From contig BDDD01000317.1 of NCBI GenBank assembly GCA_001972305.1, forward strand, positions 2,508 through 66,507: DNA of 64,000 nucleotides, given 5' to 3'. Within the stretch, counting starts at the first letter, position 1. Each line of letters begins with the position of its first letter. The notes beneath the pieces are model-generated. The model did not search any database, was not told where the DNA came from, and was given only the letters and a program-made list of their open reading frames with translations. This stretch comes from Cephalotus follicularis. Taxonomy: Eukaryota > Streptophyta > Magnoliopsida > Oxalidales > Cephalotaceae. Below are positions 1,898 through 62,149 of this stretch, in pieces. The position numbers and the translations under genes are program-made.

Positions 1898-4800
1898 AGT
1901 GGTATCAGAGAGAGGTTCTTGCTTAGAAATTCAAGATGTCAGCAACCAAGTTTGATATTGCGAAGTTTGATGAAACATGCGATTTCAGTATGTGGCGTGT
2001 TAAGATGCGGGCACTACTGATACGACAAGAAGTTTGGGAGGCAGTAGATGGTGAAGAAGGTTTACCTAAGGATATGCCTCAGGTGGAAAAGAAGAGGATT
2101 CTAAACAGGGCACACACATCGATTCAGCTATGTCTGGAGGATGACGTTCTCCGTGAATTTGTGGAGAAGAAGATGATCCTAAACAGGGCACACACATCGA
2201 TTCAGCTATGTCTGGAGGATGACGTTCTCCGTGAATTTGTGGATGAGACTACATTTATTGGGTTATGGAATAAACTGGAGAGTCGCTACATGACCAAGTC
2301 ACTCACAAACATGTTGTATCTCAAACAACGTCTATATACTCTTTGAATGAAGGAAGGTATGTCCGTAAAAGAGCATATTGACAATTTTAGGTGATTCATG
2401 ATTTGAAGAATACAAATATTAAAATTGATGATGAAGATCAAGCCTTGATCTTACTGTGTTCGTTGTCGTCCTCATATGATCACTTTGTGGATACTATGTT
2501 ATATGGTAGAGACTCCATTGATGTAAATGATGCTAAGGATGCATTGCAGTCTAGGGAGTTGAAGAAAAAGGTGTCAGAAAATATGGGAGAGAATCAGGCA
2601 GGAGGTCTGGTAGCTAGAGGCAGGAATCGGGAGAGAGGGTCGGGTAAAAGGGATAAGTCACGATCTAAGTCGAGAGCTAAGAATTCTCGATGCTTTATTT
2701 GTAATGAAACATGGCACTGGAAGGTTGATTGTCCAAGATACAAGGGAAATGGAATAGCTAAATGGAATGCAGTCGAAGCTAATGCAGGAGTTGCGCATGA
2801 AAGTTCGGATGAAGCTGATTCAGATTTAGTTATGTCTGTTAGCGTAAATAACGCCAGTAGTTAGATTCTTGATTCGGGATGTTCTTTTCACATGACACCT
2901 AACAGGGATTGGTTCACCACCTATGACGTCAAGGAGGGGAAGGTTTTATTGGGGGACAACAATGCATTGAAGGTTGTCGGATGTGGGAAAATTCAGATCA
3001 AAATGTTTGACGGTGTGATTAGAATTTTGGAAGCTTGGCATGTTTCGGGGATGAAGAAAGACCTGATTTCCTTAGGGGTTCTAGATTCTCATGGTTGCAA
3101 GTTCACCGGTGAGAATGGGATAATAAAAGTTCTTAGGCGTGCTCTGGTAATTATGAAGGGTAAGAAAATCGATGACTTATATCAGCTGTAGAGGAATACT
3201 ATGCTGGGTACTGCAGCAGTTGCTTTTTCATCAGGGGATAAAGATGCAGATACTACTCGGCTGGAGCATATGAGTGAGAGAGGGTTGCAAATTCTATCCA
3301 ACAAGGGTTTGCTAGCTGGGGTGAAGTCAGGAAAACTGGATTTCTGTGAACATTGTGTATATGGAAAACAGTGTAGGGTGAAGTTCAGTACTGCCATTCA
3401 CAAAAACAAGGGTATTTTGGATTATATTCATTCTGATCTTTGGGGTCCCTCGTCACAGGTGTCACTTGGAGGAAGTAGGTATTTGATGACCTTGATTGAT
3501 GACTACTCTAGAAAGGTCTGGACATATTTTTTGAAGAGTAAAGATGAGGCGTTTGTCAAGTTCAAACAGTGGAAAATCATGGTAGAGAAGAAAACAGGAA
3601 GAGTGGTCAAGACTCTACGGACTGACAATGGTTTGGAGTACTGCTCAGGGGTATTCGACAAGTTCTGCAAGGATGAAGGTATGGTGAGACATCATACTGT
3701 ACGGAAAACACCATAACAAAATGGAGTTGCGGAACAGATGAACAGAAAGTTATTAGAAAGAGTACGCTGCATTCTTTATAATGCTGGTCTCTCTAAGAAG
3801 TATTAGGTTGAGGCAGTTCATACAGTAGCTTACTTGGTAAATAGGTCTCCATCAATAGCCATTGAGTTACAGACTCCACAGGAGGTATGGTCAGGTACCG
3901 TGGGTGATTATTCTAAGTTGAAAGGATTTGGTTGTCCTGCATATGCTCACGTGAATGATGGTAAACTTGAGCAGGGGGCAAATAAGTGCATATTTCTAGG
4001 GTACGCGGATGGGGTGAAAGGGTATCGGTTGTGGTGCATTGAAAATCCCAAGTCGCCAAAATTTCTTATTAGCACAGATGTGACATTTGACGAGTCTGCT
4101 ATGGTCAACCAGAAGGAGAAGTCTGTTGAGAATGGTGAGAAAGACCTTGGTGTAGAGAAACAGGTGGAGCTTAGTCTAGAAGCTCCGGGAAGGGAAGATG
4201 AAGCTTCTTCTAGTCAGTCAACTCAAACCGAATTGCAAGATCAGGATGAAGATGGAGCAATTCAGGAGCAACAGTATAGTATTGCTAGAGGCAGAGATAG
4301 GAGGCAGATTAGACCACCACTGAGATACAGTTATACGGACACGGTAGCCTTTGCTTTGTCAGTCACTGAAAGTGTTGAAGGAGAGGAACCGTCCACTTAT
4401 AAGGAATCAGTGAAAAACAAATAATCAGTGGAGTGGGTAACTGCTATGAATGAAGAAATTTAGTCTCTTAATAAAAACAATACTTGGGAGTTAGTAAAAC
4501 TGCCAAAGGGGAAACGGGTTGTAGGTTGTAAGTGGATCTTCAAGAAAAATGAGGGTATACCAGGGGTTGAGGCAAGAAGGTTCAACGCACGGTTAGTAGC
4601 TAAGGGTTTTACTCAGAAGGAGGGAGCGGACTTTCATGAAATATTTTCTCCAGTTGTGAAGTATAGATCGATACGTGTGTTACTCGCTATGGTTGCTTGT
4701 CAAGACTTGGAGCTTGAGCAACTGGATGTCAAGACAGTGTTCTTACATGGTGAGTTAGATGAACAGATTTACATGTCCCAGACAGAGGGTTATCATTTTT

Positions 4801-15781: not shown

Positions 15782-16779
15782 TGTTGACGATTTAGTCTCA
15801 ATCTTAGTTTTGATGATAACATATTTGCATTTGACAAGTTTACTTGATGTGCAAGAAATTACAAGTTCAATACCAAAGCAAAAATACCATCTACAGAAGA
15901 AGACATCGACTCTCAAGTAATGACATCGACGTCCGTACAGAAAGACATCGACTCCTTTAAAGAAGACATCGACGCCTTTCATGCCAGAAGTTACAGGACA
16001 ATTTCGAGTGATGACATCGATGCTTATCAGTAAAGACATCGACGTCCGTACGAAAGAAGTCGATCCCTATCTTAAAGACATCGACGCCTTTTTAAAATGG
16101 TTTGACCCGGGAAATCTGAAACGGCTAGTACACGCACTTCCAACGGCTATAATTACAAATGCACAACATTTTACCAGCCGACCGCAAGGAAAATCCAGTC
16201 GACTGGATTTGGTCTGAATGCACAAAAATAGATCCGTTGGAGGATCTCTATAAAAGGAAGAATGTGGTATTTTTACACAAGAGACACAACAAGAGATAAC
16301 AAGCAAATACACATTCCTTCCAAGCAACACTAGAGCTATTCTACATCTTTCAAATCAATATCTAAAGCTTGTAACTAAGCTAGCACTTTCATATCCAACC
16401 TTTGAGAGGTTATTGTAAACACAACACAATTAACTTTTATCATTCTTTGTATTTGAGGGGAGTGAACCCTTGTAAGGTGTTTCATTGATTTGCACCCGGA
16501 ACCCAAAATCAATTGTAAGGTGGTTTGTTTGATTTGCACCCGTAAGTCGAAAATCAAAGGTTGCTAGTGGATTCTAGTGGAAACTCAAGAGGTCTTGAGA
16601 AAGTGGACGTAGGCACGGATTTGCCGAACCACTATAAATTTGTTTGCACTCATTCTATCCCTTATCTCTTTACTTGTCATTGTTTAATTGTTTGTTGTGT
16701 GCTTGTTTAGATTCATTGTCTTAAGTTGTATTTTCCGCATACAAAGTTATTAGTTAAAGGTTGCCATACATTCCATTCA
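15782..16779 (+). repeat. 5' LTR of the gag-only element
   Basis: It starts TGTTGACGATTTAGTCTC and ends CATTCCATTCA, two bases before the primer site. Between 15902 and 16085 it holds about eight copies of GACATCGAC or a close variant. A CCAGTCGACTGG palindrome lies near 16195, followed by a TATAAAAGG box near 16250. Confidence 0.8.
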
Positions 16780-18169
16780 GTTGGTATCAGAGCGGTTATC
16801 TCATTATTCTTAATTGTTAGAGATATAAAGATCCATGGCAAACCAAATGAACCTAAACATGGGATTAGAAGGTTCCTCCATCACTAGACCTCCGTTTTTT
16901 GACGGAAATAACTATAGTTTTTGGAAGACTAGGATGACCATATTTTTACAATCCCTTGACTATCAATTATGGCATATTATTGTAAATGGTCCTAGGATGC
17001 CCACAAGAACAATAGATGGAGTTTTATCTCCTAAACCCGAAAATGAATATAATGATAATGACTTTAGGATGCTCCAATTAAATTCTAAAGCCAAACATGT
17101 TTTATTTTGTGCCGTTTGCCCTAATGAATTTAATCGGATATCTTCTTGTGATTCGGCAAAAATTCAAGAAGTTCCTCAAGAGTCAAAAAGGCAAAAAGGC
17201 CTTCAAAAAGAAAGTCTCTCAAGATGAAGAATCGAGCAAAAGGGAAGAACCGACTTGCTTTGAGTGCAAAAAGCCGGGTCATTTCAAGAACGAGTGCCCG
17301 TATCTCAAAAAGAAAGAAAAATTCAACAAGGAACATTTCAAGAAGAAGAATGAGCAATCCAAGAAGAAGAAAGCAATGGTAGCAACTTGGGATGTTAGCG
17401 ATCCCTCTAGCTCCGAAGAAGAAGAATGTGATGAAGAAGTTGTCAACCTTGCTCTCATGGCTATGGAAGAAGATACTAGTGGAGATGAAAGCGAAAGTGA
17501 GGTAAATTTTACATTCAATGAATTACAAAATGCATATGAAAACTTGTTTAAAGAATATGAATGCATCTGCTTGAAAAATAAGACCCTAAAGAAAAATGCT
17601 ATCTCCACGTCTAAAGAAATTGATAATTTAAAGAATGAGAATAGCAAGCATTTGAATGAAATTGAATATCTAAAGGATAAAAATAGCTTTTATATGAATG
17701 AGATTGATATTTTAAATGTTTCTTCAAAATTGTCAAATGATTTTATGGAAGAAAATAAAAAGCTAAAAATTGAAATTGATGCCTTGAGGAAGACATTTTC
17801 TAAATTTTCTAATAGTAGTGACAAGTTGGATAATTTGTTAGGTTTACAAAGATGTGTGTTTGACAAAGCCGGTCTCGGCTATAAACAAATGAAAAATGTC
17901 AAACACTTTAACAATTTCTTTGTTAAGAAAGTAGAGCCTCAATTTTGTTGCAATTATTGTGATAGAATAGGACATGTATCTTCCTCTTGCATTTTTAGGA
18001 ATAATCTTCGTTTTGGTAAATCTAGAAAGATTTGGGTTCCGAAAGGAACTCTTGTGACTAACTTGCAAGGACCCAAGTTCAAATGGGTACCAAAAACTTG
18101 AACCTTGTTTTGTAGGTGTACTTGAAGTCAAGCTCAATATGTTCAAGTACATAACTTGGGGAGAAAGCC

Positions 18170-18930
18170 TTAGTTGAGGGGGAGGTATTGATACAATGTT
18201 GATTGCTTCGTTTAATTTTTTATTAGTATTGTTTTATCCTACAATTGGTACATCTCAAATTTTTTATGATATTGAAATTGTAACTTTCAATGGATTTTAT
18301 TTCAATTGGCATTCCCTTATTCTTGTTTTAAGTTGGTATCCCTTTACAAAAAGGCTTATTTGGTGTCAATTCTTTGACATTTTCTTTAAAAGGGGGGAAA
18401 ATGCTCCATGCTTAAAAAGAAACTTATAGCTTATGCTAAGGGGGAGCTTGATATGAAAATATGATTAAAGGGGAGTTTATGGTTAAGGGGGAGTTTCTTT
18501 AAACTTTTTGTTGTTTGACAAAAAAGGGGAGATTATTGATATTGCATTGCAAAATTGGTATTACATTTGTTGCATTGGTGATTATTTGGTATTGCATTGG
18601 TAGATATTGGTATTTTCTAAGACTATGCATATATAAAGGGGGAGAATGTTGCTAAATCACTTTAACAAAGGTTTTTAGACTTGATAATTTATGGTTGAGT
18701 TAATTTCAGTAGTGTTAAATGATTAATCATTTCAAAATCATGCAATATTAGGCTTGTTTTGTCAATCATCAAAAAGGGGGAGATTGTTGGCTTTTTGCCA
18801 CCCCTTTAATTGTGTTAAATGAATGTGTTTCTCAATTATTGCCAAAATTATGTTCATTGCCGATATTTGTGATATTTTGTGCATAATGCCTATGTTCACT
18901 CTCTTTACCCTTGCTTATATTAAGGGGGAG
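18170..18930 (+). repeat. Array of polypurine-tract-like AAGGGGGAG motifs
   Basis: About nine G-rich tracts of the form AAGGGGGAG or AAAGGGGAG occur near 18177, 18391, 18438, 18464, 18486, 18522, 18637, 18772 and 18922. Such tracts prime plus-strand synthesis in LTR elements, normally once or twice. The tract at 18772 is followed by TGTTGGC, a typical LTR start. Confidence 0.7.
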
Positions 18931-18958
18931 CTAATGTTTTCTGCCTTTTGTAGACCTT

Positions 18959-19058
18959 TTGTTTAATTGTTTGTTGTGTGCTTGTTTAGATTCATTGTCT
19001 TAAGTTGTATTTTCCGCATACAAAGTTATTAGTTAAAGGTTGCCATACATTCCCTTCA
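18959..19058 (+). repeat. 3' LTR end of the gag-only element
   Basis: These 100 bp match the last 100 bp of the left LTR (from GTTTAATTGTTTGTTGTG) with one or two differences. They are followed at once by the target duplication ATGTT. The rest of a full-length right LTR was not recognised. Confidence 0.85.
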
Positions 19059-51524: not shown

Positions 51525-51532
51525 CTCAGTCC

Positions 51533-51546
51533 TAGGGTTGCAAGTG
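51533..51546 (+). repeat. Left terminal inverted repeat of the hAT
   Basis: TAGGGTTGCAAGTG, directly after target duplication CTCAGTCC. It is followed by GGCCGG, ACCGG and GGACCGG subterminal repeats to about 51670. Confidence 0.92.
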
Positions 51547-51689
51547 GGCCGGTTAAAACCGTGGACCGGCCCGAACAGGCCCGTCCAGGCCTTGAACCTG
51601 TCCGGACCATGCGTCACGTGACAGGTCCATGGTTAAACAGGTCCTTGAAAGCGGACCGGGCCGATTCAGGATGTTAGGAACCGTTGAAT

Positions 51690-52085
51690 CGGACCGGACC
51701 GTGATATTGGCATCAACGCCTAGGATATTGGCATCAACGCCTAGGATATTGCCACCAACGTTCAGGGTAATGAATTTTAAGATTCAGGATGATCCTCGTC
51801 AACGCGCTGGAAATTGTATTATTGGCGACAACGCCAATATGAAGACGTCAACACCAATATGAAACATCAACGCCAAATGTGCAAAAATCGGACAATAGCT
51901 TTGGACGTTAAAGCATAAAGCAAACGGAGTCAACACAAATGACATTCGCGTCAACGCTATTTATAGGCGTCAACGGGAAAGAAGCAAAAATCAGAAAGCA
52001 GCTAATGGAGTCAACGCGAAGAACCATTGGAGTTAACGCACAAGATTATAGACGTCAACGCTATACGTAAGCATCGACGTCAAAT
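51690..52085 (+). repeat. Left subterminal array of GCGTCAACG-type motifs
   Basis: About fifteen short motifs of the form (G)CGTCAACGC, with variants (CATCAACGCC, GTCAACGCG, GTTAACGC, GACGTCAACGC), spaced about 15-40 bp apart. Most are in the same orientation. Such repeats are the usual binding sites of hAT transposases near the element ends. Confidence 0.8.
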
Positions 52086-52385
52086 CAAACAGTAAAAAAT
52101 AACGGCTAGTTTTTAGTGCATATTTCATTTTTGGAAAATCCAAAACTTTCCTAAAGTGATTCCAACGGCTAGAAGATGATTCCAACGGCTATATTCAACA
52201 TGAAAGGCTATAAATAAAGGTTGAATCACTGAAGAACAACAACAATCAACATCAACCAACATTGAATTCATTTTTTGTCAAAATTATAGAGTTTTATTGT
52301 ACTAGATTGCCTTAGTGTATTCACTTTTATAATTTATTATCTTACTTATTATTTAATTATTAGTTAATTACATATTTTAATTACA

Positions 52386-54509
52386 ATGGATTCAACATCA
52401 AGAACAAGGAAACAAGTAAGGAGGACCGAAAAGGTGGGTTCTACATCCACCACCGCATTCGACTTGGCGGATGTGGAACTTCCTTCTGACGACAACGAAA
52501 TGCCTCACATGATGCAAAAACCTCCTCCACCTGGTGATAGATTTTTCGACTTGAATGAAGATACGCCATCGGATGCTGCGATCGGTGGAACATCCCTACA
52601 ATCCGAGAAGAACGATCCTAACAAATGGGGGAAACAAAAATCCGGTATATGAAAGCATATGGAGCTCAAAGATGTCGAGAATGGAAAGAAACGAGTATTT
52701 TGCAATGTATGTAACACTAAGGATTATGCTTATACAGGTGGGAGTGGCACGGGAACTTACAAGAGGCATTTAGTAAAATGCTTGGAACAACATGGTGTTA
52801 AAGGTTCGGGTCAAACCCAACTCTAATTTAGCCAGGTCAGTGGTGATAATAAATTACTTAATTTTAGATTTACCGATGAAAATTATAGAAGAAAATTAGT
52901 TTATTATATTATAGGTAATAAATTACTATTTTCTCATGTTGACTCAGTTTTTTTCCGTGATCTAGTACATGAAACACTTGATCCTTAGGCTAAATAATAT
53001 TCAAGAACTACCTTTAAAAGTGATTGTCTTATTATTTATGAAGAACACAGGGCCAAATTAATTTCTTCTTTTGTAAATATTTCTACTTTTTCTCTCACGT
53101 CTGATGTTGGGAGTACAAGCACAAGAAAAAGTTTTATTTGTATAACCGCACATTATATTGACGAAAACTGGTTATTACAAAAAAGAATTATTGCATTTAA
53201 AAATTTGGATTATCTTCACACCGGTCATATTATAGCTACCTCTATAATAGAAACTACTCGTGAGTTTGGAATTGAGAAAAAAAAATTCTATTAGTTTAGA
53301 TAATGCTATTAATAATGATTCTACTGTTAGACAATTAAGACTTTTTTTGATCCCATATTAAGTGATAAATTATTTCATGTTAGATGTGTATGTCATATTA
53401 TTAATTTGATTGTTCAAGATGGTTTACTTTTTGTTGCAGAACAAGTACATAAAATTACAAATATTATTAACTTTATAGGACAATCGGGTGTAAGAAAACA
53501 GTCATTTAAACATCTTTGTAATGAATGTGGTTTGAAATATAAAAATTTGGTACATGCTGTGACACATAGGTGAAATTCTACTTATGAAATGTTGTTGCGT
53601 GCTTATGAATTTAGATTACCAATAAATACATTCATAGGTATGCACATGACTGCATATTCTTCTTTTTCTGAAATATCTGATAAAGGTTGGACAACTTGTT
53701 ATGTTATGGCCCAAATTTTTGAAAAATTTAAAGAATTGACTGATATATTTTCTGGTTCTTATTATATTACTACAAATTTAGTCGTTGGTAAATTGTGAAA
53801 AATTTGTGAAATTTTTACTAAATATATGATGGAAAATAATTTTATAGATACTTGTGATATGATGGAAGAAAAATTCCTAAAATATTGGGAAACAATTCCA
53901 CCTTTATTTTGTTTGGCTGCTATAATGGATCCAAGAATAAAATTACAAGGTATGTTATTCATTGCAAATAAATGTCAAATATGCATGAGCAAAGGCAATT
54001 CAATACAATTAGATAGTAATGACATTACTCAATTGTTACATAATGCATTTGATACATATGTTAAAAAATATAGTGTTTGAAATGAATATCAAGAAAATGT
54101 TAGTAGTAGTACTAATGATCCCATATATTTTTTTGATAGAATTGCTTATGGAGTTGGTAGTAGTATGGTTAATACAAATACTGAACTACAACATTACCTT
54201 AATACAAATATTTAGTTCATTAATAAAGAAGATAGAGCGTCCTTAGATCTTTTACAATGGTGGCAAAAATAACAAACTTTTTATCCAATTCTTTCTATAA
54301 TGGCACGTGATCAACTAACAGCTCCTGTGTCCACAGTAGCATCCGAATCTGTTTTTTCTGCAGGTGGTAGGGTATTAGACGAGAGAACAGGTCGGTTGAA
54401 AGTAGAAACAATGGAGATTTATGTTTGCTTGAAAGATTGGATCGTTCAAGATCGGAGGATTCAAAAATTTATAGACGAAGATAGCGGTAGTAGTGACGAA
54501 CAAAACTAG
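52386..54509 (+). pseudogene. hAT transposase (BED finger, RICESLEEPER-like), unit 1
   Basis: From the ATG at 52386 the protein has an acidic N-terminal leader, a BED zinc finger (CNVCNTKDY...GTYKRHLVKC, about 52700-52790), and the RNase-H-like transposase core with DUF4413-type wording (HVRCVCHIINLIVQDGL near 53380, WNSTYEMLLRAYEF-like near 53570, PPLFCLAAIMDPRIK near 53900). It ends in a hATC dimerisation domain (PVSTVASESVFSAGGRVLDE and LKVETMEIYVCLKDWI, about 54318-54440). The extent of about 708 codons suits the family. In-frame stops are present, among them TGA near 52650, TAA near 52823, TAG near 52988, TGA near 53571, TGA near 53795, TGA near 54078 and TAG near 54213. There is also a frame change near 53280. 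Several stops are shared with unit 2. Confidence 0.9.
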
Positions 54510-54530
54510 ATCGCCAAGAATTCGAGGAAG

Positions 54531-54713
54531 ATGACCATAAAGATGGACAATATGCGAAAAGAGTTTCTTGACCTTTTTGACGATCATCACAGAAGACAAA
54601 GGAGACTTGAGAAGAAGTTGATTGCCAAAGGAGTTATTTTTAAGCTATTGACATCTCCTCGTCTAAAGAAGAAGAATCGGAAGAAAAAGAAGGAGAAAAA
54701 CTATGATTTTTAG
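54531..54713 (+). repeat. Copy of the convergent gene's 3' end, joined behind transposase 1
   Basis: The 180 bp after the transposase stop read TIKMDNMRKEFLDLFDDHH, then RRQRRLEKKLIAKG. This is the C-terminal wording of the minus-strand gene (KMDNLRGEFLDLFDNQHRR, RRLEKKMIAKG), here on the plus strand. With about 55735-55905 it forms an inverted repeat, by eye near 80 percent identical, with a 1-kb loop. Confidence 0.85.
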
Positions 54714-54839
54714 CTTTTTGTTGCATATGTTCTTAAAACTTTTGATGTTTTATATGTTTAAACTCTTGATGTTCAAATTTTAAGTTCTTGGATGTTTTTT
54801 TGATATTTTCGGTTATTGGATTACAGATGTAAATCTAAT

Positions 54840-55205
54840 ATCCTATTCTTGCTTTATTCACGTTAATGCGTAAGTATGGCGTTGCCACGGATGTCATTTG
54901 TGTTGGCTCCTTTTACTTTTCGCGTTAACATTCAAGTCACTATCTGAATTGTGCTTTCTTCTGTGTTAACGTCTAAAAATTGCGTTGATGTTTTCCTCAT
55001 AGGTGTTGACACTAAAAATGTTTAACGTTAACGTCCAAAGTTACTGTCCGAAATTGCACATTTTGGCGTTGACGCGGAAAATGCAATTCCCAGCACGTCG
55101 ACGAGAATCATTCAAGGCGTTGACGAAAATCATCTTCCAAAGATACTCAAGCCCTGCACGTTGACGCCTAAAATATAGTCGTTGACGCCAATATGACAGA
55201 ATGCA
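54840..55205. repeat. GCGTTGACG-type motif array in unit 1
   Basis: About fourteen motifs such as CGTTAATGCG, GTGTTAACGTC, GGCGTTGACGCGG, ACGTCGACG, CACGTTGACGCC and CGTTGACGCC. Most are in the CGTTGAC orientation, opposite to the left array, as expected of right-end repeats. The array lies internal to the element, between transposase and convergent gene. Confidence 0.8.
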
Positions 55206-55721
55206 CATATTGCTTGTTTTCACTTGCAATTTTTCCTGTTTGTCACTTTCAAACATAACCTTTCAAACATGACTATCAAACATAACCTTTACATAAATTC
55301 TCTTGACTAAAGCATTAAGTCTTTAAAAACATTTGATGCATATATGATATCAATTTATACCAAAGCATATCAAAATATTAATACTTTAAACATTCATTTA
55401 AAAACAAACTCTCCCCCTTAATAGGATATTCATTCTTTAAAAAAAAATTCATACTTGACATACACAATAAACATCTCAACAAACAATTCATCAAATCAGT
55501 TCTTGACATCGGTTCTTGACAAACAATGCATAGAAAGTTTTAAAACATCTCCCCCTTAATAGGCATATACATTACATAAACATCTTATCATAAACATATA
55601 TAACATCAAGAGTATGTAACAAGATAATATAACATCCAGAGAACTTAAAATTTGATACAAAACAAAAGTTTTAAAACTGATATAATTCAAATGTTTAAAA
55701 ATAGAAAATGCAATGTATGAA

Positions 55722-56023
55722 TCAAGTCTTCACATTATCTCCTCCTTCTTCTTCCGATTCTTCTTCTTCAGAAGAGGAGATGTCAGCAGCTTCAATAAGA
55801 CCTTTGGCAATCATCTTCTTCTCCAGTCTCCTAAATCTTCTATGTTGATTGTCAAAGAGGTCAAGAAATTCTCCTCTCAAATTATCCATCTTGATATTCA
55901 ACTTCCTCATCTCATCCAACAAAACATCCATGGACATTGACGCCTTGCTGCTACTACTTGCTTGAATTTGCTGCATCTGTGGTGCAGGGGTTTGCTTCTT
56001 TCTTTGAGCTTCTCCTTGCTCTT
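55722..56023 (-). pseudogene. Plant transposon protein (Transposase_32-like), C-terminal piece, unit 1
   Basis: About 100 codons of the C-terminal region on the minus strand: a QIQASSSSKASMSMDVLLDE linker, a coiled coil of KLNIKMDNLRGEFLDLFDN type, and an acidic SSSEEEESEEEGGDNVKT tail. It is cut at 56023, where an LTR scrap begins, so it lacks its front and start codon. The full partner is in unit 2. Confidence 0.75.
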
Positions 56024-56140
56024 TGTTGGCTTTTAGTCTCAATCCTAAGTTTTAATGATTACAAATTTGCATTTAACTTTGCTACTTTGTGTGCAAGAAA
56101 CTCTTTGTGCAAGAAAAGATATAAGCAAAACAAAGAAGTA
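56024..56140 (+). mobile_element. LTR 5'-end scrap between the hAT units, fossil
   Basis: It starts TGTTGGCTTTTAGTCTC and continues with wording (GATTACAAATTTGCATTT, GTGTGCAAGAAA) resembling the first 80 bp of the LTR at 15782. About 117 bp remain, with no second end. It stands exactly at the junction of the two tandem units. Confidence 0.65.
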
Positions 56141-56278
56141 AACATCAACCAACATTAAATTCATTTTTTGTCAAAATTATAGAGTTTTATTGTACTAGAT
56201 TGCCTTAGTGTATTCACTTTTATAATTTATTATCTTACTTATCATTTAATTATTAGTTAATTACATATTTTAATTACA

Positions 56279-58382
56279 ATGGATTCAACATCAAGAACAA
56301 GGAAACAAGCAAGGAGGACCGAGAAGGTGGGTTCTACATCCACCACCGCGTTCGACTTGGCGGATGTGGAACTTCCTTCTGACGACAACGAAATGGCCCA
56401 CATGATGCAGCAACCTCCTCCACCTGGTGATAGATTTTTCGACTTGAATGAAGATACACCATCGGATGCTGCGATCGGTGGAACATCCCTACAATCCGAG
56501 AAGAACGATCCTAACAAATGGGGGAAACAAATATCCGGCATATGGAAGCATATGGAGATTAGAGATGTTGAGAATGGAAAGAAACGAGTATTTCGCAAGG
56601 TATGTAACACTAAAGATTATGCTTATACATGGCACGGGAACTTACAAGAGGCATTTAGTAAAATGCTTGGAACAACATGGTGTTAAAGGTCAAACCAAAC
56701 TCTAATTTAGCCAGGTCAGTGGTGATAATAAATTACTTAATTTTAGATTTACCGATGAAAATTATAGAAGAAAATTAGTTTATTATATTATAGGTAATGA
56801 ATTACTATTTTCTCATATTGACTCAGTTTTTTTCCGTGATCTAGTACATGAAGCACTTGATCCTTAGGCTAAATAATATTCAAGAACTACCTTTAAAAGT
56901 GATTGTCTTATTATTTATGAAGAACACAAGGCTAAATTAATTTCTTCTTTTGCAAATATTTCTACTTTTTTCTCTCACGTCTGATGTTTGGAGTACAAGC
57001 ACAAGAAAAAGTTTTATTTGTATATTATATTGACGAAAACTGGTTATTACAAAAAAAAATTATCGCATTTAAAAATTTGGATTATCTTCACACCGGTCAT
57101 ATTATAGCTACCTCTATAATAGAAACTACTCGTGAGTTTGGAATTGAGAAAAAAAAAATTCTATTAGTTTAGATAATGCTACTAATAATGATTCTACTGT
57201 TAGACAATTAAGACTTTTTTTGATCTCATATTAAGTGGTAAATTATTTCATGTTAGATGTGTATGTCGTATTATTAATTTGATTGTTCAAGATGGTTTAC
57301 TTTTTGTTGCAGAACAAGTACATAAAATTACAAATATTATTAACTTTATAGGACAATCGGGTGTAAGAAAACAGTCATTTAAACATCTTTGTAATGAATG
57401 TGGTTTGAAATATAAAAATTTGGTACATGCTATGACACATAGGTGGAATTCTACTTATGAAATGTTGTTGCGTGCTTATGAATTTAGATTACCAATAAAT
57501 ACATTCATAGGTATGCACATGACTGCATATTCTTCTTTTCCTGAAATATCTGATAAAGATTGGACAACTTGTTATGTTATGGCCCAATTTGTTGAAAAAT
57601 TTAAAGAATTGACTGATCTATTTTCTGATTCTTATTATATTACTACAAATTTAGTCGTTGGTAAATTGTGAAAAATTTGTGAAGTTTTTGCTAAATATAT
57701 GGTGGAAAATAATTTTATAGATACTTGTGATATGATGGAAGACAAATTCCTAAAACATTGGGAAACAATTCCACCTTTATTTTGGTTGGCTGCTATAATG
57801 GATCCAAGAATAAAATTACAAGGTATGTTATTCATTGCAAATAAATGTCAAATATGCATGAGTAAAGGCAATTCAATACAATTAGATAGTAATGACATTA
57901 CTCAATTGTTACATAATGCATTTGATACATATGTTAAAAAATATAGTGTTTGAAATGAATATCAAGAAAATGTTAATAGTAGTACTAATGATCCCATATA
58001 TTTTTTTGATAGAATTGCTTATGGAGTTGGTAGTAGTATGGTTAATACAAATACTGAACTACAACATTACCTTAATACAAATATTTAGTTTATTAATAAA
58101 GAAGATAGAGCGTCCTTAGATCTTTTACAATGGTGGCAAAAACAACAAACTTTTTATCCAATTCTTTCTATAATAGAACGTGATCAACTAACAGCTCATG
58201 TGTCCACAGTAGCATCCGAATCTGTTTTTTCTGCAGGTGGTAGGGTATTAGACGAGAGAATATGTCGGTTGAAAGCAGAAACGGTGGAGATTTATGTTTG
58301 CTTGAAAGATTGGATCGTTCAAGATCGGAGGATTCAAAAAATTATAGACGAAGATAGCGGTAGTAGTGACGAACAAAACTAA
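56279..58382 (+). pseudogene. hAT transposase (BED finger, RICESLEEPER-like), unit 2
   Basis: Same domains as unit 1: BED region at about 56570-56690, transposase core at about 57270-57950 with HRWNSTYEMLLRAYEF and PPLFWLAAIMDPRIK, and a hATC domain at about 58200-58330. It is slightly better kept: two positions that are stops in unit 1 read as Trp here (near 56542 and 57445). The stops in CTCTAATTT (near 56699), CCTTAGGCT (near 56865), AAATTGTGA (near 57668), GTGTTTGAA (near 57950) and ATTTAGTTT (near 58085) are shared with unit 1. A short loss in the BED region removes part of the finger. It therefore cannot encode an active enzyme as it stands. Confidence 0.9.
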
Positions 58383-58403
58383 ATCGCCAAGAATTCGAGG
58401 AAG

Positions 58404-58586
58404 ATGACCATAAAGATGGACAATATGCGAAAAGAGTTTCTTGACTTTTTTGACGATCAGCACAGAAGACAAAGGAGACTTGAGAATAAATTGATTGCCA
58501 AAGGAGTTGTTTTTAAGCTGTTGACATCTCCTCATCTAAAGAAGAAGAATCGGAAGAAGAAGGAGGAGAAAAGCCGTGATTTTTAG
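58404..58586 (+). repeat. Copy of the convergent gene's 3' end, joined behind transposase 2
   Basis: Equivalent of 54531-54713: TIKMDNMRKEFLDFFDDQH then RRQRRLENKLIAKG on the plus strand. It forms an inverted repeat with about 59545-59720. Confidence 0.85.
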
Positions 58587-58734
58587 CTTTTTGTTGCATA
58601 TGTTCTTAAAACTTTTGATGGTTTATATGTTTAAACTCTTGATGTTCAAATTTTAAGTTCTTGGATGTTTTTTTGATATTTTCGGTTATTGGATTACATA
58701 TGTAAATCTAATATCTTATTCTTGCTTTATTCAC

Positions 58735-59075
58735 GTTGATGCGTAAGTATGGCGTTGGCACGGATGTCATTTGTGTTGGCTCCTTTTACTTCCCGCCTTA
58801 ACATTCAAGTCACTATCTGAATTGTGCTTTCTTCTGTGTTAACGTCTAAAAATTGCGTTCACGTTTTTCTCATAGGTGTTGACACTAAAAATGCTTAACG
58901 TTAACGTCCAAAGCTACTGTCCGAAATTGCACCTTTTGGCGTTGATGCAGAAAATACAATTCCCAGCACGTCGACGAGAATCATTCAAGGCGTTGATGAA
59001 AATCATCTTCCAAAGATACTCAAGCCCTGCACGTTGACGCCTAAAATATAGTCGTTGACGCCAATATGACAGAAT
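58735..59075. repeat. GCGTTGACG-type motif array in unit 2
   Basis: Same array as 54840-55205 with minor differences, again mostly in the CGTTGAC orientation. Some CG steps have become TG or CA, as methylated cytosines do over time. Confidence 0.8.
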
Positions 59076-59533
59076 GCACATATTGTTTGTTTTCACTTGT
59101 AATTTTTCCTGTTTGTCACTTTCAAACATAACCTTTCAAACATAACTATCAAACATAACCTTTACATAAATTCTCTTGATCAAAATATTAATACTTTAAG
59201 CATTCATTTAAAAACAAACTCTCCCCCTTAATAGGATATTCATTCTTTAAAAAAAAAAATTCATACTTGACATACACAATAAACATCTCAACAAACAATT
59301 CATCAAATCAGTTCTTGACATCGGTTCTTGACAAATAATGCATAGAAAGTTTTAAAACATCTATCCCTTAATAGGCATATACATTACATAAACATCTTAT
59401 CATAAGCATATATAACATCAAGAGTATGTAACAAGATAATATAACATCCAGAGAACTTAAAATTTGATACAAAACAAAAGTTTTAAAACTGATATAATTC
59501 AAATGTTTAAAAACAGAAAATGCAATGTATGAA

Positions 59534-60712
59534 TCAAGTCTTCACATTATCTCCTTCTTCTTCTTCCGATTCTTCTTCTTCAGAAGAGGAGATGTCAGCA
59601 GCTTCAATAAGACCTTTGGCAATCATCTTCTTCTCCAGTCTCCTAAGTCTTCTATGTTGATTGTCAAAGAGGTCAAGAAATTCTCCTCTCAAATTATCCA
59701 TCTTGATATTCAACTTTCTCATCTCATCCAACAAAACATCCATGGACATTGACGCCTTGCTGCTACTACTTGCTTGAATTTGCTGCATCTGTGGTGCAGG
59801 GGTTTGCTTCTTTCTTTGAGCTTCTCCTTGCTCTTCAACATCCTCACCTTCACCTTCAACTCTTTTTCTTCTTCTTCCACCTTCCTTGGGCAGCCATTCA
59901 ACACCTTTATCAGAATCAAACACTCTCTTCCATCACATTCTCTTCAAGGAAGAGGCATTGTAGATGTCTCCAACATCTATCCTCTATGCAACTTCATTCC
60001 CAAACACTATCCCAAAGTGAGAAAGAATCTTGGTGATTACCATACCGTATGGCAATGCACCTTCAACTTTAGAAGTTGCTCTTAACATGTTCTTCATGAT
60101 TAAATGAGGGGGCTTCAATGGTTTACCAGTCACAACATGCCACATACTATATAAGTCTTGGTAACTCATCTTTTCATGCCCACCGGAGGTAGGTAGAATA
60201 TGAGTGGCAGTTATGTGGTGGAGCAGCCTATGCTCAGCACCAAGGAGATTGGTAGGCTTGGCCATGCCTCCAAAAACATTCTCATTAGGGTAGAACACCC
60301 TAAGACAATCCTCCAAAACTAATTCTGGATCCTCCGGCCATTTCTTAATTTCAAAAAACTTTGATCCAGCAGCAGGTACGTTCAAAATCTGACCTAGAAT
60401 CTTATCATCAAACTTGATAATTATTCTATTAACCTTAGTCTTCAATTCCAAAACATCATTACAATCATCTCCAACATTACTCAAATTGCTATAAAAGTCT
60501 TTAATAGGTTATATATAATATGGAGCATTAATCGTAAAGTAATATTTCCAACCTAAAACATCAAATCATTGTTCTAGATTAAATTTATCACCTGTAGTGA
60601 AGGAGAAATCAACAGTCCTTTCACAAAGCACTTTTTGGGAAACATAAGAACTCTTGTATATCTGACCAGTGGGTGTCTTGCCTCCATGTGATGAGTGCTT
60701 TGTCTTCGGCAT
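59534..60712 (-). pseudogene. Plant transposon protein (Transposase_32-like) gene, broken
   Basis: The ATG at 60710-60712 begins MPKTKHSSHGGKTPTG. The middle (about 60484-59990) has the wording of the putative plant transposon protein family (PF20167-like): VNRIIIKFDDKILGQILNVP, EHRLLHHITATHILP, MWHVVTGKPLKPPHLI and LPYGMVITKILSHFGI. The C-terminal part is basic, then a coiled coil (LLDEMRKLNIKMDNLRGEF), then acidic, ending NVKT. It is about 390 codons long and converges on transposase 2. In-frame stops lie near 60570, 60510 and 59927. The role of this family in transposition is not established. It could be an accessory factor or captured DNA from another element. Confidence 0.72.
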
Positions 60713-60834
60713 AATGCAGGATAAGGTTTTGATAAAAAAAGATTCAAGATTTTTAGGTCTGAAGATCGGATTTTAGAAAAAGGAAAGAGAGGGAAACTAG
60801 GGATTTCAACGCTAAAACAAGTAAAAGTCGACGA

Positions 60835-61095
60835 AAACGCACAGAGCTTTATATACTCGACCCGTAGGCGTCAATGTCTAATGTTTGCGTTGACACTTAT
60901 CGTGTACCATTTGATACAGTCGATATAGGCGTTAACGTCATCATTGACGCAAAAACATGTCGTTAACGCTAATAGATAGCATTGACGCACAAGATCAAAA
61001 GCATTCCCTCATAGATAGCGTTGACTTATATCAGTCATATTGGCGTCAATGACTAGACACTCGGCATCAACGTCATGCATACACGTCAACGTGAA
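60835..61095. repeat. Right subterminal array of GCGTTGACG-type motifs
   Basis: About ten motifs (GGCGTCAATG, GCGTTGACAC, GGCGTTAACGTC, CATTGACGC, CGTTAACGC, GCGTTGAC, GGCGTCAATG, GCATCAACGTC, CACGTCAACG) in mixed orientation. The CCGG-rich end follows. Confidence 0.78.
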
Positions 61096-61283
61096 TATGA
61101 ACCGAACCAGCTCGGACCGGCCTGTCTCGCTTATGGTTAAGGTTCACGTGCCGGTTCGGTTTTCACTTTTTAGCTCCATGAACCGGACTGGCCCGAACCG
61201 TGAGAAAGGCGGTCTGGTTCAAGAACCGGACCTCTTTTCGCCGGTCCCGACCGGTCCAGACCATTGTCCGAACCCGCTCGGAC

Positions 61284-61297
61284 CGCTTGCAACCCTA
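61284..61297 (-). repeat. Right terminal inverted repeat of the hAT
   Basis: CGCTTGCAACCCTA, the complement of the left end with one mismatch, then CTCAGTCC. It is preceded from about 61105 by GGACCGG, CCGGTCC and similar motifs. Confidence 0.92.
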
Positions 61298-61361
61298 CTC
61301 AGTCCGTATCTTATTTTTAATTTGGATTTGTTGCATAAGAATAGCATGTGAAAACTCCTTC

Positions 61362-61735
61362 CAAAATTTGATCGCGTGATTTTATTTTGCGAATTTAATG
61401 TTGCATTTGATATTCTATATTTATATTCATGTAGCTAATGAATATTAATTTTTAATTCAATCAGATATCTGTAGATATGACATTCCACTCTTTTAGTATA
61501 AATAAACAAATCATATAACAATCGTAAATTTTATCCTTATATTCCCAAAATTTGATTTTATGATTTTATTTTACGAATTCAAACGTTAAATTTGATATTC
61601 GAAATTTGTATCTATGTAATTAATGCATACAAATTTTCAATTCAATCAAATATCTAGATTTTACATCGAATAAACTACTATTTTCGTATAAATAAGAAAA
61701 TCGTATAACAGTTCAAAATTTTATTATTTAAATGA
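61362..61735. repeat. Diverged direct duplication of about 185 bp
   Basis: 61362-61541 and 61548-61735 share CCAAAATTTGAT, GATTTTATTTT(G/A)CGAATT, TTTGATATTC, TTCAATCA(G/A)ATATCT, TAGTATAAATAA and TCGTATAACA in order, by eye 75-80 percent identical. Part of the block recurs inverted near 61740-61840. Non-coding. Confidence 0.75.
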
Positions 61736-62149
61736 AATAATTACAGATATCTGATTGATTTGAAAATTTATATGTATACTTTATATAATTAAACATCAAA
61801 TTCAGTTGGATACATAAAATAAAATCATAAGAATGAATTTAGGAAAAGCTCCAATATCCATTTTTTCCATTTAATTTAAATTTTTATTACAAATTTAAAT
61901 AGGTGAACTTTTCACCATAAATCCTTTAAAATGTTTTTCACCGAAAAGAGATACTTTATTAATTGTTTTTAAAAACAATTTTTGAAGTAGAAAATAGTGT
62001 TGATATGTTTGATAATGAGAATACATAAATCATCATATTAACCCTAATCCAATGTTTATTTTGTCATCTATACTTCAAAAAAATACATGTCGATATTCAA
62101 ATTCCGATCTCAACACAAAATCTTATATGATAGTTACTAATCTACAAAT

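Follow-up and report, generated by a model that had tools for sequence, protein, structure and literature searches.

Two transposase units between one pair of ends: a hAT element of Cephalotus follicularis most likely doubled in place

The subject of this report is a hAT element of 9,765 bp (51533-61297) that carries two transposase units between a single pair of ends, in a 64,000-nucleotide stretch of the Cephalotus follicularis genome (contig BDDD01000317.1, positions 2,508 to 66,507; hereafter the window). Comparing its sequence with those of its relatives, we consider it very probable that this is a single-unit hAT copy, its transposase already dead, whose interior was doubled in place by end joining that left the end of a long terminal repeat (LTR) type of sequence at the join. 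The core of the story is then an ordinary one: most likely a decayed hAT copy doubled where it stood, a one-off scar rather than a new kind of mobile element. Doubling in place most likely accounts for the second unit because the element has one outer target duplication, internal junctions that are unique in the assembly, and a broken transposase that both units share.

One pair of ends, two units and a junction found once

Reading of the sequence and self-comparison place the same octamer, CTCAGTCC, on both sides of the element. Its left copy (51525-51532) and right copy (61298-61305), both read directly, are identical, and constitute the 8-bp target duplication by which the hAT superfamily is recognized. 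The short terminal inverted repeats typical of the superfamily begin with TAGGGTTGCAAG at 51533 and finish with CTTGCAACCCTA at 61297, 17 of the 19 terminal bases matching, and each unit retains a transposase domain, PF05699 (E 4.1e-23 for the piece from unit 1, in which an X stands at a stop, and 2.1e-20 for that from unit 2). The three remaining transposase pieces submitted to the domain search gave no hAT match.

Both arms are single. The left arm (51533-52247, 715 bp, forward strand) carries, in addition to its TAGGGTTGCAAG terminal repeat, subterminal repeats of the CGTCAACG type, and its end is matched at 80-89% in 39 other places among the best 40 of 838 candidates; the right arm (59836-61297, 1,462 bp, forward strand) ends in CTTGCAACCCTA. 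Between the arms, in the same orientation, lie unit 1 (52248-56023, 3,776 bp), a spacer (56024-56139) followed by one extra base (56140), and unit 2 (56141-59835, 3,695 bp), as delimited by self-comparison and alignment. The two units form the sole long direct repeat within the element, at 94.4% over 3,778 aligned columns with gaps included; the alignment holds 104 differences in 3,691 ungapped columns (2.8%) and seven gaps, not counting the alignment edge. The preliminary description of the locus, as one 8-bp target duplication and one pair of ends around two 3.7-kb units, is borne out by these readings. It had also put forward two possible origins, namely movement as a tandem composite or duplication after landing.

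We searched the 1,577,397,061 bases of the assembly with patterns of 39 bases for the right internal junction and 37 bases for the left, allowing up to 3 mismatches, and each matched once, at the element's own locus. A 201-bp junction query matched itself in full, and the 39 other scored places (best 40 of 1,737 candidates) stopped at or before query base 148, none of them extending well into unit 2. With a 621-bp transposase probe, two matches within 10 kb on one contig occurred here only among the best 40 of 549 candidates, 3,873 bp apart. A conserved 32-base transposase word had 434 matches at up to 2 mismatches, against 0 for its backward control. Among the 100 of these matches listed, all exact, the closest pair on one contig lies by eye about 24 kb apart on opposite strands, in what is a weak test for other tandems, the element's own unit 2 being absent from the list because it carries a mismatch in the word.

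The relatives of the element point the same way. We fetched 20 copies from the 40 places scored with the transposase probe, a non-random sample in which 18 are the highest-scoring apart from this locus and two rank lower, and none has two units. Fifteen align across the point at which unit 1 breaks off, where GCTCTT runs on into CAACATCC or a close form, and 16 align across the point at which unit 2 starts. Nine of the 20 have both ends within the fetched stretch, 5,081-6,520 bp apart, and all nine are single-unit; the 8-bp target duplication is perfect in five (L043, L044, L047, L048 and L050), matches at 7 of 8 positions in L035 and L041 and at 6 of 8 in L049, and at 2 of 8, which amounts to none, in L045. 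The other 11 lack one or both ends in the stretch, again with two units in none. Judged from these copies, an element of this family has one unit and measures about 5.9 kb in its usual form.

Two observations on individual relatives may be recorded here. In L041 (G000:C1509:55000-64500), the two-ended copy of 6.3 kb already mentioned for its imperfect duplication, the right arm and the 3' part of the unit appear by eye to be inverted inside the element. L032 (contig C9662) and L033 (C2120) differ by 0.9% and have the nearest 385 bp of left flank in common at 99%, and not beyond; each reaches a contig end, and they are possibly two alleles or a recent duplicate.

A double unit that formed elsewhere and transposed here whole, making the 9.8-kb tandem a mobile composite, would suit the intact ends and target duplication, and a dead transposase would be no obstacle to it: dead elements can be moved by the transposase of other copies, as is established for Ac/Ds. 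A mobile composite would, however, be expected at more than one site, each with a target duplication of its own, and its junctions were found at one locus only; the further loci that the preliminary description had proposed to look for are absent from the assembly at up to 3 mismatches. The nine two-ended copies are, moreover, all single-unit, although the double unit may conceivably have come from a donor since lost or excised. With both internal junctions unique we reject the mobile composite, which we regard as very improbable. The other origin, duplication after landing, agrees with the one target duplication, the unique junctions, the sister relationship of the units described below and the single-unit relatives. 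What had been named in advance as telling against a composite, a unique junction with all other copies single-unit, was found for the 20 copies fetched, out of a family with 434 word matches.

Sister units with a shared, broken transposase

Each unit had been credited with a hAT transposase of its own, and each does have a hAT dimerisation domain, but both copies are dead. The remnant in unit 1 (52386-54509, forward strand) has nine in-frame stops and that in unit 2 (56279-58382, forward strand) has six, in both cases together with a frameshift region, and neither retains the intact frame that would mark an autonomous member. Across all 20 fetched copies the longest stop-to-stop frame over the transposase is 447 aa, in L043. 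That frame matched no Pfam family; in another relative, L048, the domain search found PF14372 as well.

All six stops of unit 2, read in the columns of unit 1, are also present in unit 1. Those at 52824, 52995, 54078 and 54213 occur in 0 of the 19-20 other copies compared, whereas the shared stop at 52986 is found in 2 of 19 and that at 53796 in 13 of 20; the three extra stops of unit 1 are sense codons in unit 2, and each also occurs in some other copies. Because six in-frame stops are common to both units and four of them are absent from the other copies compared, the sequences indicate that the transposase was already broken in a single-unit ancestor, before the doubling.

Built from 22 rows, the two units and the 20 other copies, a maximum-likelihood tree joins the units as sisters with support of 100/100; their stem measures 0.019 changes per column and their tips 0.014 and 0.016. 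Bases common to both units and absent from other copies occupy 35 of the 3,402 columns compared, and private bases are shared right beside the breakpoint. Each unit has the other as its nearest row in 12 of 14 alignment blocks. For 94 classified differences between them, the private state lies in unit 1 at 24 and in unit 2 at 33, both states occur elsewhere at 35, and neither does at 2. Unit 2 is without three short stretches of unit 1 (8, 6 and 8 bp), the first of which is missing in L033 too, while L036 lacks one of its bases; all other rows that cover the place, L042 not being among them, have the second and third. A stretch of 63 bp, likewise missing from unit 2, is complete in unit 1 and in four further rows, but is omitted from many rows and is accordingly of little information.

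The distance between the units, at 2.8% and seven gaps, exceeds the 0.9% that separates the possible allele pair L032 and L033, and might be taken to mean that two distinct hAT copies were united here by nested or adjacent insertion and deletion. Yet the tree makes the units sisters, the four stops seen in none of the other copies are shared between them, as are the private bases beside the breakpoint, and the outer target duplications match at 8 of 8 positions. On the unit tree and the shared stops we reject the joining of two different copies, to which we give as little credence as to the mobile composite.

The spacer and the route of joining

The junction interval, 56024-56140, is not hAT sequence. 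Its first 116 bp (56024-56139, forward strand) correspond to the opening 116 bp of a repeat of LTR type that is dispersed and abundant (TGTTGG...CCAACA), starting at the terminal TG. At all seven other loci of the repeat that were read (L002-L008) it begins with the same TGTTGGC, and all 116 spacer bases are identical at six of them (L002, L003, L004, L005, L007 and L008), L006 having one mismatch. The repeat has the TG...CA ends of an LTR, and at L002, L004, L005, L006 and L007, where it is 268 to 1,050 bp long, a 5-bp flank recurs after CCAACA; no recurring 5-bp flank was found in the stretch read at L003 and L008. These duplications belong to the other loci of the repeat, the spacer itself keeping the 5' 116 bp only. 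On their sequence, the loci with 5-bp flanks look like solo LTRs. Downstream at two of the seven loci lies TGGTATCAGAGC, a sequence usual for tRNA-primer sites and here a candidate for one, in L008 shortly past a stretch resembling the repeat's end and in L006 195 bases beyond that end. A search of the window for the remainder of the LTR gave only related pieces, 81-89% identical, at 15791-19054; these represent a diverged relative of the repeat and not the source of the spacer.

Past spacer base 116 there is one A (56140, forward strand) that fits neither side, either untemplated or an altered C, and then unit 2 begins, from the position equivalent to 52248. The sequence shared at the join between spacer and unit 2 is 0-2 bp. 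At its other end, 59835, unit 2 is uninterrupted and without trace of an LTR, and because it reads GCTCTTCAACATCC as single-unit copies do, its source shows no sign of one either. A filler is unlikely by chance to begin at precisely the opening base of a repeat that is several hundred bases in length, and therefore retrotransposon DNA was probably there in the form of an end, whether already integrated at GCTCTT or captured or half-integrated as the joining took place.

The history we propose would begin with the insertion of a single-unit hAT element of about 5.9 kb at CTCAGTCC, the transposase of which would then have gained several stops. The interior, 52248-56023, would have been duplicated in direct orientation inside this same copy, through end joining of 56023 on one chromatid to 52248 on its sister or homologue, with the terminal 116 bp of the LTR-type repeat included in the join. 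The doubling in place, the non-homologous joining, the sister or homologous chromatids and the route of the LTR end are the steps that we infer. Two other mechanisms are not favoured: the internal junction has neither a hAT end nor an 8-bp duplication, as a transposition from reversed hAT ends would leave, and the joined sequences share only 0-2 bp, which speaks against homologous unequal crossing-over between repeats.

As to how the LTR end came to lie at the join, two routes seem about equal. In the first, a free or half-integrated retrotransposon DNA end would have been captured while a broken chromatid was being joined to its sister, a single event that we put a little below an even chance. 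Retrotransposon cDNA is captured at breaks in yeast, which offers a precedent. On this reading a failed LTR integration may, at rather less than even odds, directly and in one step have made a tandem duplication inside another transposon, and this one event would also explain why unit 2 is without the LTR. In the second route, unit 1 would first have received an LTR retrotransposon at GCTCTT, of which a rearrangement that came later as a separate event (an exchange with an LTR-free homologue, or a deletion in a pre-existing tandem) would have left only the first 116 bp. A spacer beginning exactly at the first base of the repeat is what normal integration gives, and the repeat is abundant, as the 1,737 first-look candidates for the junction query (best 40 scored) attest; the price is two or three events, and a unit 2 that is uninterrupted at the same position, from a source with no sign of the LTR. 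Insertion of the LTR first is a sub-route of the doubling in place, its odds lying within those of that explanation, and we likewise rate it as possible at rather less than even. Economy of steps inclines us slightly toward capture, with templated filler synthesis as the remainder.

It may also be asked whether two alleles or copies were misjoined in assembly. The assembly consists of 9,746 contigs, and L032 and L033 may be just such alleles or a recent duplicate. However, the join shares at most 1-2 bp, which is little for overlap assembly to act on, unit 2 has deletions of its own, and the left flank matches the assembly at one place (the right flank matches itself and otherwise has only partial, repeat-like matches). 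We hold a misjoin to be the least probable of the explanations considered.

Some observations weigh against the doubling in place as set out above. No empty site or second allele was found in the species' own assembly, in which both flanks were searched, and no intermediate allele was seen in this one genome. At 35 of the 94 classified unit differences both states exist among other copies; in one alignment block L031 ties with unit 2 as the nearest row to unit 1 (11/300 each), and in the final, short one unit 2 stands closer to L031 (0/122) than to unit 1 (1/145). Because of these two-state columns and the L031 blocks, the units may have undergone recurrent change or been converted by other copies. 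Either the LTR step or the duplication may have come first, and dating by the spacer is uninformative: at the unit rate 1.6 changes would be expected in it, and zero changes has a probability of about 0.2 even at the age of the units. Finally, the evidence covers 20 fetched copies of a family with 434 word matches, in one genome.

A second gene, known parallels and significance

The hAT family has a second, convergent gene, of the Transposase_32 family (PF20167). Its remnant here would extend over 59537-60712 on the reverse strand, as judged from the sequence, with the domain match (E 4.9e-17) within 59987-60508; the 3' part of the gene lies inside the duplicated unit and its body in the right arm only. 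In L046 the gene is open over 447 codons (2337-3677, forward strand). An inverted copy (about 76%) of the gene's 3' end adjoins the transposase stop in unit 1 (54524-54796 versus 55631-55908), and the same inverted pair recurs in unit 2 (58397-58669 versus 59443-59720); repeats resembling the subterminal ones of the element lie between the inverted copies, at 54845-55200. Even the one-unit form of the family may be the product of an old fusion. Beyond the element, the AT-rich right flank (61361-61846) contains diverged direct and inverted repeats (about 70-80%) that partly match many places in the genome.

The element resembles plant Ac/Ds-like hATs in its 8-bp target duplication, short terminal inverted repeats (those of Ac begin C/TAGGGATGAAA), subterminal repeats and hAT dimerisation domain, and differs from them in the convergent Transposase_32 gene of its family and in its doubled interior. 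The double Ds of maize likewise has more than one transposon unit within one structure, but the Cephalotus element has one outer pair of ends and its interior alone is doubled. Chromosome-breaking Ds elements are described as having multiple transposon ends, and maize Ac/Ds is also described as showing small rearrangements, copies in decay and filler DNA (PMC3260210). Direct duplications linked to a hAT element have been described, in which transposon ends give rise to the junctions and 8-bp target duplications are found there (PMC3744419); the Cephalotus junction differs from these in having an LTR-type start and no hAT end. Plant end joining with filler DNA is a further parallel, in that unlinked sequences are joined with a short insert, and maize wx fillers of 1-131 bp are cited for plant non-homologous end joining in PMC2686159. 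The filler is described there as deriving from sequence near the break, whereas the Cephalotus insert has as its exact start the end of an LTR-type repeat that is dispersed in the genome. Among the titles and abstract openings listed in literature searches we found no direct precedent for hATs with an internal tandem duplication or two tandem transposase genes, for Transposase_32 with a hAT, or for a tandem duplication accompanying half-site or one-ended LTR integration.

A plant transposon can thus mimic a two-transposase composite even though it is most likely one dead copy doubled in place, and the uniqueness of the junction, taken together with a tree of the units, is a simple test that separates the two. 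The spacer, in addition, is a clean marker: beginning as it does precisely at an LTR-type end, it points to the participation of retrotransposon DNA in end joining. Should junctions of this kind prove recurrent, short tandem duplications in plant genomes would have a measurable source in aberrant integration of retrotransposons.

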